A stretch of DNA of 64,000 bases from Azoarcus sp. DN11 (lineage in GTDB: Bacteria > Pseudomonadota > Gammaproteobacteria > Burkholderiales > Rhodocyclaceae): positions 3,658,001-3,722,000 of the forward strand of contig NZ_CP021731.1 in NCBI RefSeq assembly GCF_003628555.1, written 5' to 3'. The notes under the pieces are model-generated. The model was not told the DNA's origin. It worked only from the letters and a program-made list of their open reading frames with translations, and ran no database searches. The position numbers were made by a program, and so were the translations under genes. How positions within the stretch are numbered: the stretch's first letter is position 1; every line of letters begins with the position of its first letter. This document shows, piece by piece, positions 20,964 to 61,976 of the stretch.

Positions 20964-20992
20964 ATTTTAACCCGACCGGTCGGTCGGCTGAA
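20964..20992 (-). promoter_or_regulatory. promoter with CGACCG-N2-CGGTCG operator, unit 20898-15435
   Basis: On the minus strand TTCAGC, 17 bp and TAAAAT. The spacer contains the dyad CGACCG-N2-CGGTCG at 20973-20986. The expected transcript start is near 20957, 60 bp before the thiolase ATG. Confidence 0.75.
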
Positions 20993-21107
20993 TACTAATG
21001 CATCGCCACGAGGACAACAAGACGTTTGTGCAAAACGGGATGTGCCGATGCTCGCGGACCCGGCAGAGCTCCGGATCGCCGATACGCCGAACATCGACGC
21101 GGGACGC

Positions 21108-21149
21108 AAAAAAAGAACGCCGTCCGGCAGACTCAGGTCGCCGGACGGC
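21108..21149 (-). terminator. strong minus-strand terminator with no gene upstream
   Basis: A perfect 10-bp stem GCCGTCCGGC / GCCGGACGGC with an 11-nt loop is followed on the minus strand by GTTCTTTTTTT. It lies in the 497-bp gap between the divergent units starting at 20898 and 21396. No coding gene precedes it on that strand, so it may end a short RNA or shield the thiolase promoter from antisense transcription. Confidence 0.7.
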
Positions 21150-21266
21150 AAAGCTTCGACGCAGGTTGCGTGGAGAGAGAGGAGGCGCAATCGTCGAAGT
21201 GAGACACCGCCCAAAGAGCAGAGGAGCACTCGCGCACATGTGGCGGCCGTCGGCTGTCGTGCTTTA

Positions 21267-21295
21267 TTGACACCCGACCGGTCGGTCGGTACGCT
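21267..21295 (+). promoter_or_regulatory. promoter with CGACCG-N2-CGGTCG operator, unit 21396-25511
   Basis: TTGACA, 17 bp and TACGCT. The spacer is filled by the dyad CGACCG-GT-CGGTCG at 21275-21288. The start of transcription is expected near 21302, about 94 bp before the first ATG. Confidence 0.85.
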
Positions 21296-21395
21296 TGAGC
21301 CGAATCTTAAGTGACTCGATTGCGGATGACAAGCCCCCGCAGCGACGCAGCCGGAAGGCGAAGCGCAGGGGCGATACGGATACCAGGAGAAACCG

Positions 21396-22319
21396 ATGCA
21401 GGATCTGGCCGGACGTGTTGCGGTCATCACAGGCGCTGCCAGCGGCATCGGCGCGGCGATGGCGTGGCGCTTTGCGCGCGCGGGGATGAAAATCGTCGCC
21501 GCCGACGTTGATGAAACGGCCCTTGCGGCTGTGTGTGCGGACCTCGTGGAAGCGGGCCATGCGGCGATCGGCGTACGCACCGACGTCGCCAGCGGGGATG
21601 ACGTGGAATCCCTGGCCGAGCGGGCGTACGCCGCCTTCGGCGCAGTCCATCTGCTGTGCAACAACGCCGGTGTCGTCCCGTCCGGGCGATACCGGGCGGT
21701 GTGGGAGTTCCCGCTCGAGGATTGGCGCTGGTCGCTCGACGTAAATCTCTACGGCGTCATACACGGCTTGCGCAGCTTCATCCCGCGCATGCTGGACGGG
21801 GGCCACGAGGGCCACGTCCTGACCACAGCTTCGGTCGCGGGACTCATCAGCGGTTCGGGCTCCGCCGTGTACAGCGCGGCGAAGCATGCCGCGGTGCGGG
21901 TCACGGAAGCCTTGTATGCCACGCTGCGCGAACGCCACGCGCCGATCGGCGTGAGCCTGCTGTGCCCCGGCCTCGTGAACACGCGCATCTACGAATCCGA
22001 GCGAAGCCGCCCCGAGGCCCTACGGCCCGCTGACGGGCCGGCCCGGGAAACCCAAGAGTTGCAGGCGATTGCCGCCAGCCTCTACGCGGGCGCGATGTCC
22101 CCCGAGGAGGTCGCCGACATCGCGTGGCGGGCCGTGCTCGACAACCGCCTGTACGCGCTCACCACCGACAGCTTCGACGACGCGATCCGCGAGCGCATGG
22201 CAGCCATCCTCGACCGCCGCAATCCGGAGTTCGCAACCCTGCTGGCGCTGAGCCGGCGCGACGTCGGCGAACGCGGGCGACCGTCGCCGGCGGCGACTTC
22301 ACCAACGACGGCAGCTTGA
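21396..22319 (+). CDS. SDR family oxidoreductase
   Basis: A 307-residue short-chain dehydrogenase with TGAASGIG near residue 13, CNNAG, a catalytic Ser in TTASVAG and YSAAK. The C-terminal extension (about 50 residues with FDDAIRERMAAILDRRNPEF) is longer than in typical SDRs. The same extension is seen in the gene at 55071-55967, which is a clear paralogue over its whole length. An AGGAGA ribosome site precedes the ATG. It is first in the unit with the DUF35/thiolase pair. It probably oxidises a hydroxyl or reduces a keto group on the substrate; the substrate is unknown. Confidence 0.85.
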   Translation: MQDLAGRVAVITGAASGIGAAMAWRFARAGMKIVAADVDETALAAVCADLVEAGHAAIGVRTDVASGDDVESLAERAYAAFGAVHLLCNNAGVVPSGRYRAVWEFPLEDWRWSLDVNLYGVIHGLRSFIPRMLDGGHEGHVLTTASVAGLISGSGSAVYSAAKHAAVRVTEALYATLRERHAPIGVSLLCPGLVNTRIYESERSRPEALRPADGPARETQELQAIAASLYAGAMSPEEVADIAWRAVLDNRLYALTTDSFDDAIRERMAAILDRRNPEFATLLALSRRDVGERGRPSPAATSPTTAA

Positions 22320-22361
22320 ACTCAGCCTGCCCTCCCCTCCTTCACAACAAGGGAACCGCAC

Positions 22362-60141: not shown

Positions 60142-60208
60142 CAGCTTGCCCCACAAAACAACGATATCGCGGACCGGGGCTGCCTTGGGCGCTGCCCCGG
60201 GTCACCCC

Positions 60209-61468
60209 TTACTTGGAGTAGGCCTTGATGCTCGAATATTCGCGTCCTTCGTGTTTCTTGCATTCGAGCCGCGCCACGGTGCGGCAATGAACCTCGTCCG
60301 GCCCGTCGGTCAATCGCACGATCCGGGTATTCGCGTACAGCTCCGCCAGCCCGAAGTCCTGCGAAACCCCGCCGCCACCGTGCGCCTGGATCGCCAGGTC
60401 GATGATGCGTTGCGCGACCTGCGGCGCCACCACCTTGATCATCGCGATCTCGCCGCGCGCTTCCTTGTTGCCGACCGTGTCCATCATGTAGGCGGCCTTC
60501 ATGCACAGCAGGCGCACCATCTCGATGTCGATACGCGCGTTGGCGATGCGCTCTTCCCACACCGAGTGCTCGTTGATCTTCTTGCCGAAGGCCTCACGCG
60601 ACATCAGGCGGATGCACATGCGCTCCAGCGCCACCTCCGCCGATGCGATGTTGCGCATGCAGTGGTGGATGCGGCCCGGCCCGAGGCGACCCTGCGCGAT
60701 CTCGAAGCCACGCCCTTCGCCGAGGATCAGGTTCTCCGCCGGCACCCGCACGTTGTCGAGGATCACCTCGAAGTGGCCGTGCGGCGCATGGTCGAAACCG
60801 AACACATTGAGGTGGCGCACCACCGTCACCCCCGGCGTGTCGCGCGGCACCAGGATCATCGACTGCTGGCGATAGGTCTCGGCGTTCGGGTCGGTCTTGC
60901 CCATCACGATGAAGAACGCACAGTGCGGGTGACCGGCGCCCGACGACCACCACTTGTGGCCGTTGATCACGTACTCGTCGCCGTCGCGGCGGATCTCGGT
61001 GCGGATGTTGCGCGCGTCCGACGAGGCGACCTTGGGCTCGGTCATCAGGAAGGCCGAGCGCGTCTCGCCGTTCATCAGCGGCACCATGAAGCGCTTCTTA
61101 TGGTCCTTGGTGCCGTAGCGGTGCAGCACCTCGAAGTTGCCGGTGTCCGGCGCCATGCAGTTGAACACTTCGGAGCCGAAGGACACGCGCCCCATCAGCT
61201 CGGCGATCGGCGCGTACTCGACGTTGGTCAGGCCGATGCTGGAGAAGAACTCGTCGTCGTGGTCCGACGGCGGCATGAAGATGTTCCACAGCCCTTCCGC
61301 GCGTGCCTTGGACTTCAGCTCCTCGAACACCGGCGGCGTCTCCTTCCAGCGGTCGATGCTCGCAGCCTGCTGGTGATACAGGGGAACGGCGGGATAGATA
61401 TGGTCGTCCATGAAGGTCCGGACCCGCTCCATCCACTCGAGTGACTTCTTCGATTGCTCAAAATGCAT
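60209..61468 (-). CDS. acyl-CoA dehydrogenase, ACAD10/11-like
   Basis: A 419-residue FAD enzyme with NCMAPDTGNFEVLHRYG, FLMTEPKVASSDARN, NGHKWWSSGAGHP and the C-terminal AHGGGGVSQDFGLAEL and DGPDEVH. The APDTGN(F/M)E signature places it with the ACAD10/11 type. It is a near relative of the divergently transcribed gene at 62046-63293. First gene of a seven-gene minus unit. It probably introduces the 2,3 double bond in the activated substrate or an intermediate. Confidence 0.9.
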   Translation of the reverse strand: MHFEQSKKSLEWMERVRTFMDDHIYPAVPLYHQQAASIDRWKETPPVFEELKSKARAEGLWNIFMPPSDHDDEFFSSIGLTNVEYAPIAELMGRVSFGSEVFNCMAPDTGNFEVLHRYGTKDHKKRFMVPLMNGETRSAFLMTEPKVASSDARNIRTEIRRDGDEYVINGHKWWSSGAGHPHCAFFIVMGKTDPNAETYRQQSMILVPRDTPGVTVVRHLNVFGFDHAPHGHFEVILDNVRVPAENLILGEGRGFEIAQGRLGPGRIHHCMRNIASAEVALERMCIRLMSREAFGKKINEHSVWEERIANARIDIEMVRLLCMKAAYMMDTVGNKEARGEIAMIKVVAPQVAQRIIDLAIQAHGGGGVSQDFGLAELYANTRIVRLTDGPDEVHCRTVARLECKKHEGREYSSIKAYSK

Positions 61469-61559
61469 TTCTGGCGACCTCTGTGAATTGATGACGCAGC
61501 TCCGGCCCGGCGTGGGCGGCGAAACCGCCTTGCGAATACGCGCGCGCTGACATGACCCA

Positions 61560-61588
61560 GCGTAACCGACCGACCGGTCGGGTGTCAA
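61560..61588 (-). promoter_or_regulatory. promoter with CGACCG-N2-CGGTCG operator, unit 61468-53582
   Basis: On the minus strand TTGACA, 17 bp and TTACGC. The spacer contains the dyad CGACCG-AC-CGGTCG at 61567-61580. The predicted start of transcription is about 85 bp before the dehydrogenase ATG. Confidence 0.85.
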
Positions 61589-61617
61589 TATGGTCGTTTC
61601 CCATCCTGTCGCATGTG

Positions 61618-61842
61618 TCACCCATCACGTCCGCCGCCCTCGCGATCGTCTGCCGCCGGTGACGATGCGGGGCCGAGCGTCGGCTTGCACCCTTTGCACC
61701 GCCCCGAGCAGGTGTACTTCATGCGCGAGGGGATCAGCGGACAGGTCAGCGACTGCGGGTCATGCCCGATTTGTCCGCCGCCCTCGTTGGCCGTCCCCGC
61801 CGCATCATGCGGGCGCCGGGGATCAGAACGCTCCGCCGCCAT
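61618..61842 (-). CDS. doubtful small Cys-containing open frame
   Basis: A 74-codon frame in the gap between the two divergent dehydrogenase genes. Its middle reads TCPLIPSRMKYTCSGRCKGCKP, a small Cys cluster that could bind metal. The ribosome site is weak (GGGGCGAG) and no operator lies in front of it. It may be chance in high-GC DNA; the 457-bp gap 61589-62045 otherwise holds only the promoter of the 62046 gene. Confidence 0.2.
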   Translation of the reverse strand: MAAERSDPRRPHDAAGTANEGGGQIGHDPQSLTCPLIPSRMKYTCSGRCKGCKPTLGPASSPAADDREGGGRDG

Positions 61843-61950
61843 GCCACTCGCCCCTAGCTACCCTGAACATCGCTTCCACTCGCCCGTCCTCACCGCTGCG
61901 CCGACCGGAGGCCTCCCCGGCCCCATGGAATTCCTCGCAAGCAAGATACA

Positions 61951-61976
61951 CGACCGTCCAGTCGGTCGTCTATAAT
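61951..61976 (+). promoter_or_regulatory. promoter with degenerate operator, gene 62046-63293
   Basis: A perfect TATAAT at 61971-61976 with the dyad CGACCG-TC-CAGTCG (one mismatch in the right arm) at 61951-61964 upstream. No good -35 box is seen (ACACGA at the right distance). Confidence 0.68.

Follow-up and report, generated by a model that had tools for sequence, protein, structure and literature searches.

PaaR (BCAL0210) of Burkholderia cenocepacia is a TetR-family negative regulator of phenylacetate degradation, and in Burkholderia a ACCGACCGGTCGGT element lying between the -35 and -10 boxes is required for negative control of paaA (PMC2770484). Its release is ascribed to compound II of a review (PMC9493321), which is taken here to be phenylacetyl-coenzyme A (CoA). 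PfmR (TTHB023) of Thermus thermophilus has an in-vitro consensus with the core GACCG-N2-CGGTC, and its operator point mutants derive from CTGACCGATCGGTCAG (PMC7022988). Among regulators of other catabolic pathways, MbdR of Azoarcus sp. CIB (3-methylbenzoate) is a TetR protein induced by a CoA thioester (PMC4424350), and EdcR of Caenibius tardaugens (estradiol) is a TetR repressor whose operator overlaps the core promoter (PMC8700777). The present analysis concerns a 64,000-nucleotide stretch (the window; NZ_CP021731.1, positions 3,658,001 to 3,722,000) of the genome of Azoarcus sp. DN11, described as an anaerobic benzene degrader. Within it a 14-bp dyad, CGACCG-N2-CGGTCG, stands before eight transcription units (A to H, Table 1) of a 48-kb catabolic locus, which also carries a TetR-family gene at 41117-41758. 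As the explanation that best accounts for the whole, the dyads are very probably the operators of one TetR repressor, most likely the product of this gene, a reading drawn from sequence data.

An earlier note, made from the letters of the window, had reported the dyad at eight places. All eight were recovered, seven as exact copies and the one at 61951 with a single mismatch. The exact dyad occurs 11 times in the whole 4,956,835-bp DN11 genome, compared with three occurrences of a reversed-pattern control, and seven of these copies fall in the window, where uniform placement of the 11 would put 0.14 (by arithmetic). Among 30 first-order Markov versions of the window, three exact dyads turned up in total. 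The four copies outside the window have the centres CA, CG, TG and AG and lie within stretches whose longest open frames span 1.3–3.0 kb. The genome-wide search proposed in the note gave a divided answer: exact copies are concentrated at the locus, and the many equally good copies elsewhere that would have spoken against a regulon did not appear, but with up to one mismatch allowed the pattern is hardly enriched (159 matches vs 121 for the control). Because of this, only exact or conserved sites are used as evidence below.

When the window is scored with a matrix built on the exact sites of the DN11 locus and of its relatives, its eight best places are precisely the eight dyads. Exact locus sites score 24.9–29.6 bits, the eighth (61951) scores 15.1 bits and the next non-overlapping place 8.9 bits. 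Between 1 and 15.4 kb nothing scored as high as 6 bits, and the 8 kb past the window end contained no further place of at least 9 bits. As one of the 30 Markov versions attained 18.8 bits, above the score of 61951, the case for this imperfect site rests on its conservation rather than its score. All eight dyads are intergenic, the non-coding fraction of 15435-63293 being 9.4% by our own gene calls.

Conservation was followed in 16 congeners, six of which possess an orthologue of the TetR protein (74–94% identity): Aromatoleum tolulyticum, A. diolicum, A. toluclasticum, Azoarcus sp. Aa7, A. toluolicum and Azoarcus sp. KH32C. Together with DN11 these are referred to as the seven carriers. Exact dyads number 9–19 per genome in the six other carriers (reversed control 1–6) and 2–8 in the ten non-carriers (55 in total; reversed control 2–10). 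The locus stretches of the seven carriers hold 78 exact dyads (DN11 and KH32C, 7 each; A. diolicum and A. toluolicum, 12 each; A. toluclasticum and A. tolulyticum, 13 each; Aa7, 14), none of which lies inside a gene according to our own codon-model calls, while off-locus exact copies total 29, at 2–7 per carrier. Just over half of the relatives' 71 locus dyads (37) stand in front of close orthologues (at least 79%) of genes that a dyad precedes in the window, and the remaining 34 precede other units, mostly absent from DN11. Dyads thus recur at orthologous genes in every congener with a TetR orthologue, as the note had proposed to check. The centre of the dyad, read by eye, is AC or GT at 47 of the 78 locus sites, at none of the 29 off-locus sites of carriers and at none of 44 sites in eight non-carriers (11 sites of two other non-carriers left out). 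The spacing is conserved as well, with the dyad of unit E lying 66–68 bp before the hydratase gene in all seven carriers. The spacer between units A and B has partly diverged in sequence, yet its dyads, like some other stretches of it, are conserved. Beyond these congeners, two Burkholderiales metagenome-assembled genomes (MAGs; TetR identity 68–69%) and an uncultured Erythrobacter (50%) contain 3, 3 and 4 exact dyads, respectively, around the TetR gene, standing among homologues of the window enzymes.

The arrangement of the dyad relative to promoter elements is equally regular. In 43 of the 78 cases the dyad has a -35 box ahead of it, TTGACA (40) or TTGACG (3), whose end lies 2 bp before it, and each of these 43 boxes faces a gene; the same boxes at 35 other offsets tested gave 35 hits summed. 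The best -10 match follows at 17 bp in 31 of these promoters, at 18 bp in nine and at 16 bp in three. This layout is found at five of the seven exact DN11 sites and, with the same -35 geometry, at four of the ten exact dyads in the MAG and Erythrobacter loci, and collapsing orthologous sites by eye leaves about eight or nine distinct promoters. An operator that fills the promoter spacer implies repression by occlusion, and the geometry, together with the PaaR precedent, suggests that the units would be repressed from the dyads.

Two other explanations are weighed by the same observations. If the TetR protein were an activator or dual regulator acting from the dyads, the paired sites of each divergent region could permit looping, and the 35 sites lacking a -35 box at the fixed distance would be easier to accommodate; a site filling the 17–18 bp spacer of a near-consensus promoter is nevertheless a repressor's position, and PaaR, with a near-identical operator in the same position, represses, which makes an activating role very unlikely. 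The dyads might also have arisen by chance as palindromes in a GC-rich genome, or be a dispersed repeat with no function; the poor enrichment of the one-mismatch pattern could be cited for this reading. It is scarcely credible, and already contradicted, given that 7 of 11 exact genomic copies cluster at the locus, that no locus site falls within a predicted gene, and that the dyads persist amid partly diverged spacers at a fixed spacing to -35 boxes.

The protein encoded at 41117-41758 combines matches to PF00440 (1.8e-15) and PF17932 (8.5e-25), giving the helix-turn-helix and all-helical ligand domain of the TetR family, and its structure model is all-helical. A Pfam scan of the 42 predicted genes between 15.4 and 63.3 kb recognised no other regulator and left one gene, 42438-42821 (+, 127 amino acids), without a match. 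The note had singled out a lone "ABM-like" gene as lacking the dyad: the gaps flanking 42438-42821 (679 and 168 bases) are indeed dyad-free, but the label found no Pfam match to confirm it. The closest solved relatives of the TetR protein by sequence are 3dcf (2.8e-28) and 3vpr (PfmR, 2.3e-23), and comparison of the model put PfmR at the top and also recovered KstR2 and the isovaleryl-CoA-binding AibR. An acyl-CoA ligand, as suggested in the note, would be plausible. At E <= 1e-30, the wider TetR group comprises at least 661 proteins among 8000 scored candidates. A class-wide orthologue search at E <= 1e-40, scoring up to eight candidates per genome, returned one of 369 genomes, DN11 itself. 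The note's proposal of a single TetR-type regulator, with 41117-41758 as the best candidate, is strongly supported by inference from its standing as the sole recognised regulator of the locus and from the recurrence of dyads with its orthologues in all six congeners. With a dyad at every operon's promoter and its recurrence in relatives, one repressor most likely switches the pathway.

Several points weigh against this assignment. Model confidence is moderate (mean pLDDT, the predicted local distance difference test score, of 73.6, and 54–57 in the other four models). None of the seven carriers has an exact dyad within 1.5 kb of the TetR gene, and the corresponding specificity control, with none at any of 30 loci of TetR homologues, the seven orthologues included, was uninformative. 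Autoregulation of the gene is implied through an operon that was itself delimited by spacing. The locus is present or absent as a block, and because it comes and goes in its entirety, co-occurrence cannot single out the TetR gene. The seven genomes that contribute the 78 sites are related, so the sites do not count as independent; 35 of them (including 20973 and 37446) are without a -35 box at the fixed distance, and the pattern with one mismatch allowed is, as noted, hardly enriched in the genome. At 20973 a -10-like TAAAAT, read by eye, is adjacent to the dyad. The dyad at 37446 may belong to an internal promoter, since it lies 49 bp past the end of one plus-strand gene and 66 bp before the next; the claim of a dyad before each unit therefore stands as eight intergenic sites, one per unit, with a reservation for this one, which has a counterpart at the same place in all six relatives and in both MAG loci.

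Whether another TetR protein could bind the dyads was considered in relation to phenylacetate degradation. With one mismatch, the Burkholderia element ACCGACCGGTCGGT is found at each of the seven exact window dyads and at two other places of the DN11 genome (with up to two mismatches, 53 places vs 43 for the control). DN11 carries paaA homologues at genome positions 385094 and 2299923, and a TetR gene of the same kind, 388778-389383, near the first, whose product is 28% identical to the window TetR. In the paa region a similar site, TTGACCGGTCGGTCAA at 380566-380581, is a possible PaaR-type operator. These findings would suit a model in which the paa-linked paralogue, for example, binds the dyads and the locus forms part of another regulon. 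The paa-region site, however, carries T/A where the outer position of the dyad has C/G, and its score is 7.6 bits, against 24.9–29.6 bits for exact locus sites. The locus, moreover, has its own TetR gene, which remains close to dyads in Aromatoleum, in two MAGs and in an Erythrobacter. Control by another TetR protein is accordingly improbable, though less so than activation from the dyads, and the outer C/G pair may be what separates the window TetR from the paa-linked one. Identity of the window regulator with PaaR itself was rejected because DN11 carries this separate paa-linked protein.

Under repression by the window TetR, the observed sites, conservation, promoter geometry and gene content could be joined as follows. 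Without inducer, one or more TetR dimers on CGACCG-N2-CGGTCG would exclude RNA polymerase, the bound dyad forming the spacer between -35 and -10 in about half of the promoters (43/78). As the regulator gene sits within a controlled unit, E, the protein would also repress itself. A pathway intermediate, probably a CoA thioester formed after the ligase encoded at 39480-41027, would bind the repressor and free all eight units together. These would allow a hydrophobic carboxylic acid to be taken up, activated and degraded by beta-oxidation, with kinases and dehydrogenases of the ACAD11/LvaA-C type converting 4-hydroxyacyl-CoAs to ordinary enoyl-CoAs.

The gene content on which the predicted pathway is based is summarised in Table 1, where ACAD stands for acyl-CoA dehydrogenase.

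Table 1. Regulatory features and transcription units of the locus, in window positions.
Feature	Position	Strand	Description
TetR-family regulator	41117..41758	+	TetR_N and TetR_C_24 domains; candidate binder of the dyads
Unit A	15435..20898	-	Thiolase, 3-hydroxyacyl-CoA dehydrogenase, ACAD, APH kinase, DUF6285, histidine phosphatase (Pfam)
Unit B	21396..25511	+	SDR, ChsH2-type OB protein, SCP-x/BbsB-type thiolase, weak DUF2889 match, SDR
Unit C	25562..31922	-	ACAD11-type kinase (30774-31922), PimC/PimD-like ACAD pair, SDR, enoyl-CoA hydratase, MFS
Unit D	32329..37397	+	CMD protein, NADPH-dependent reductase-like protein, FadB/FadJ-like protein, thiolase
Unit E	37525..41758	+	Enoyl-CoA hydratase, EthD protein, SDR, acyl-CoA ligase, TetR
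Unit F	42990..52968	-	DUF1302, DUF1329, YCF48-type, MMPL, Usp, FAD_binding_2, MFS
Unit G	53582..61468	-	ACAD11-type dehydrogenase (60209-61468), MFS, SDRs, OYE/BaiCD-like flavoenzyme, CMD protein
Unit H	62046..63293	+	ACAD11-type dehydrogenase
Putative operator dyad CGACCGGTCGGTCG	20973..20986		75 bp before unit A; counterpart in 6/6 relatives
Putative operator dyad	21275..21288		Before unit B; fills spacer TTGACA-17-TACGCT
Putative operator dyad	32099..32112		Before unit C; TTGACA-18-TATCTT
Putative operator dyad	32178..32191		Before unit D; TTGACA-17-TAGGCT
Putative operator dyad	37446..37459		66 bp before unit E, which contains the TetR gene
Putative operator dyad	53248..53261		Before unit F; TTGACA-17-TAGCCT
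Putative operator dyad	61567..61580		Before unit G; TTGACA-18-TACGCT
Putative imperfect operator dyad CGACCGTCCAGTCG	61951..61964		Before unit H; mismatch identical in 6/6 relatives
Small-RNA-like element	21108..21208	-	Conserved, 101 nt, between the unit A and unit B dyads

Both halves of ACAD11 are represented, as separate genes. The kinase gene of unit C (30774-31922, -) matches ACAD11 residues 10–351 (E 7.7e-80), the dehydrogenase gene of unit G (60209-61468, -) matches residues 371–769 (E 3.4e-136), and unit H (62046-63293, +) encodes a further match to the dehydrogenase (E 2.4e-115). On homology, the units would encode 4-hydroxyacyl-CoA kinase and elimination chemistry of the ACAD11 type. 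Unit A is presumably LvaABC-like, DUF6285 being taken to correspond to LvaB. The ChsH2/SCP-x-type thiolase pair of unit B has benzoylsuccinyl-CoA thiolase as its closest solved structure; the PimC/PimD-like dehydrogenases of unit C and the old-yellow-enzyme-like flavoenzyme of unit G scored below model cut-offs, and a search of the Protein Data Bank (PDB) at E <= 1e-50 gave no match for the CoA ligase. Unit F probably provides transport of a hydrophobic substrate and an oxidation, and the gene content as a whole points to a hydrophobic carboxylic acid that is imported and beta-oxidised. The gene at 53582-54142 was assigned as the last of the unit starting at 61468 from gene gaps. Just past unit H, at the locus edge, lies an insertion-sequence-type DDE transposase gene (63465-63959, -, 164 amino acids).

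A classical steroid or bile-acid cluster, an idea suggested by the bile-acid degrader Azoarcus sp. Aa7, was unsupported by the window genes. Of ten proteins of Aa7 that were checked, several proved to be F420 proteins or 2-oxoacid oxidoreductase proteins, and one resembles a ketosteroid dehydrogenase, below the cut-off. The interior of the enlarged Aa7 locus contains, in stretches L055 (contig 103, ~25–33 kb) and L054 (17.4–19.2 kb), coenzyme F420 genes (cofD, cofE and an NADPH-dependent F420 reductase, with an F420-type oxidoreductase scoring just below its cut-off) and a gene for a 2-oxoacid:acceptor oxidoreductase alpha subunit. More dyads on the same contig have a molybdopterin oxidoreductase gene and an FdhD-type gene next to them (120.3–122.5 and 132.5–133.2 kb). 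Genes that match these in length are similarly positioned in A. diolicum, A. toluolicum and A. tolulyticum.

The small-RNA-like element, situated between the unit A and unit B dyads, is made up of a hairpin with the loop CCUCCUCUC, which is C/U-rich and anti-Shine-Dalgarno-like, and then a strong terminator-like hairpin leading into a U run (-40.6 kcal/mol, z -4.6). It has a single DNA-level match in DN11 and is alignable in all seven carriers; of its 25 consensus pairs, three show two-sided change and four are broken in one sequence each. Across 19 genomes, with 150 candidates scored in each, a model of the element reached E <= 1e-23 only in the seven carriers, once in each and a second time in Aa7. 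Eight weaker matches (E 6e-7 to 5e-4) were found among the scored candidates, in carriers and three non-carriers. The second Aa7 copy (contig 103, 82994-83096, -) lies upstream of a second thiolase/ACAD/APH/DUF6285 set. No match was obtained in the MAG and Erythrobacter loci (best E 0.26), nor any family in an Rfam search. A sigma-70 promoter directly upstream was not found, with one candidate at 21332-21304, and the promoter and terminator scan did not list its terminator either. The element could be a trans-acting RNA or the leader of unit A. A tentative wider reading, somewhat likelier to fail than to hold, is that the TetR repressor and this conserved RNA with its anti-Shine-Dalgarno loop form a two-layer regulon of an undescribed split-ACAD11-type pathway of 4-hydroxyacyl-CoA degradation, whose sites would span ~130–140 kb in Aa7 and A. 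toluclasticum and, in Aa7, run across the F420, 2-oxoacid:acceptor oxidoreductase and molybdoenzyme genes.

From sequence alone, these data define a coherent regulon for a large and hitherto uncharacterised catabolic locus of hydrocarbon-degrading denitrifiers, together with its likely regulator, operator and promoter geometry, and the PaaR/PfmR type of operator is extended to a pathway with ACAD11-like enzymes. We know of no described bacterial TetR regulator for such a pathway, a point on which no search was made. Six operator strings sought in the literature matched in just two papers, each dealing with phenylacetate degradation, and no title in the part of the Aromatoleum/Azoarcus literature consulted describes this TetR protein or regulon.

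Among known systems, the locus shares with KstR and KstR2 of actinobacteria, for which effectors have been reported, the principle of a TetR repressor over a large regulon for hydrophobic-substrate catabolism, and KstR2 is among its sequence and structure matches. The window TetR scores 23 bits with the NCBIfam KstR model (cut-off 280), and the KstR/KstR2 operators reportedly differ from the dyad. MbdR belongs to the same bacterial group, and its structure (PDB 4uds) matches the window TetR at 3.7e-9, more weakly than PfmR; its operator is said to be of another kind. EdcR likewise represses a proteobacterial catabolic cluster from a core-promoter operator, but an EdcR-like operator was rejected, the proposed TnnCnnTACnAnTnGTAnnGnnA being unrelated to the dyad. 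With the LvaA/LvaC and ACAD10/ACAD11 routes the locus has in common kinase and dehydrogenase genes matching both ACAD11 halves, which here, in contrast, are scattered over several units under one putative operator; ACAD10 and ACAD11 phosphorylate 4-hydroxyacyl-CoAs and yield enoyl-CoAs (PMC12440821).

PfmR and PaaR stand nearest. PfmR (PDB 3vpr) is the top structure match, with 31–32% identity over the aligned part, and the core of its in-vitro consensus, GACCG-N2-CGGTC, occurs in every exact dyad and is absent from 61951; the earlier note had named PfmR as an example of TetR regulators with ACCGACC-type pseudopalindromes. In the PfmR operator the outer position is T/A instead of C/G, and the genes reported as PfmR targets serve fatty acid metabolism in a distant phylum. 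Like PaaR, the window TetR would repress several catabolic operons from an inverted repeat between -35 and -10, a repeat with an ACCGACC/GGTCGGT core filling that spacer at the 43 sites described; the common unit here is nonetheless a 14-bp dyad of variable centre, and eight units over 48 kb lie outside paa. As the PaaR precedent, which the note had missed, is the closest, the operator type is already known from Burkholderia and Thermus. What is new is the regulon with its targets, beta-oxidation genes that include split ACAD11-type kinase and dehydrogenase genes, along with the conserved small-RNA-like element. The conserved regulon is real, the predicted assignment of its regulator is strong, and the mechanism is of the known PaaR/PfmR kind.

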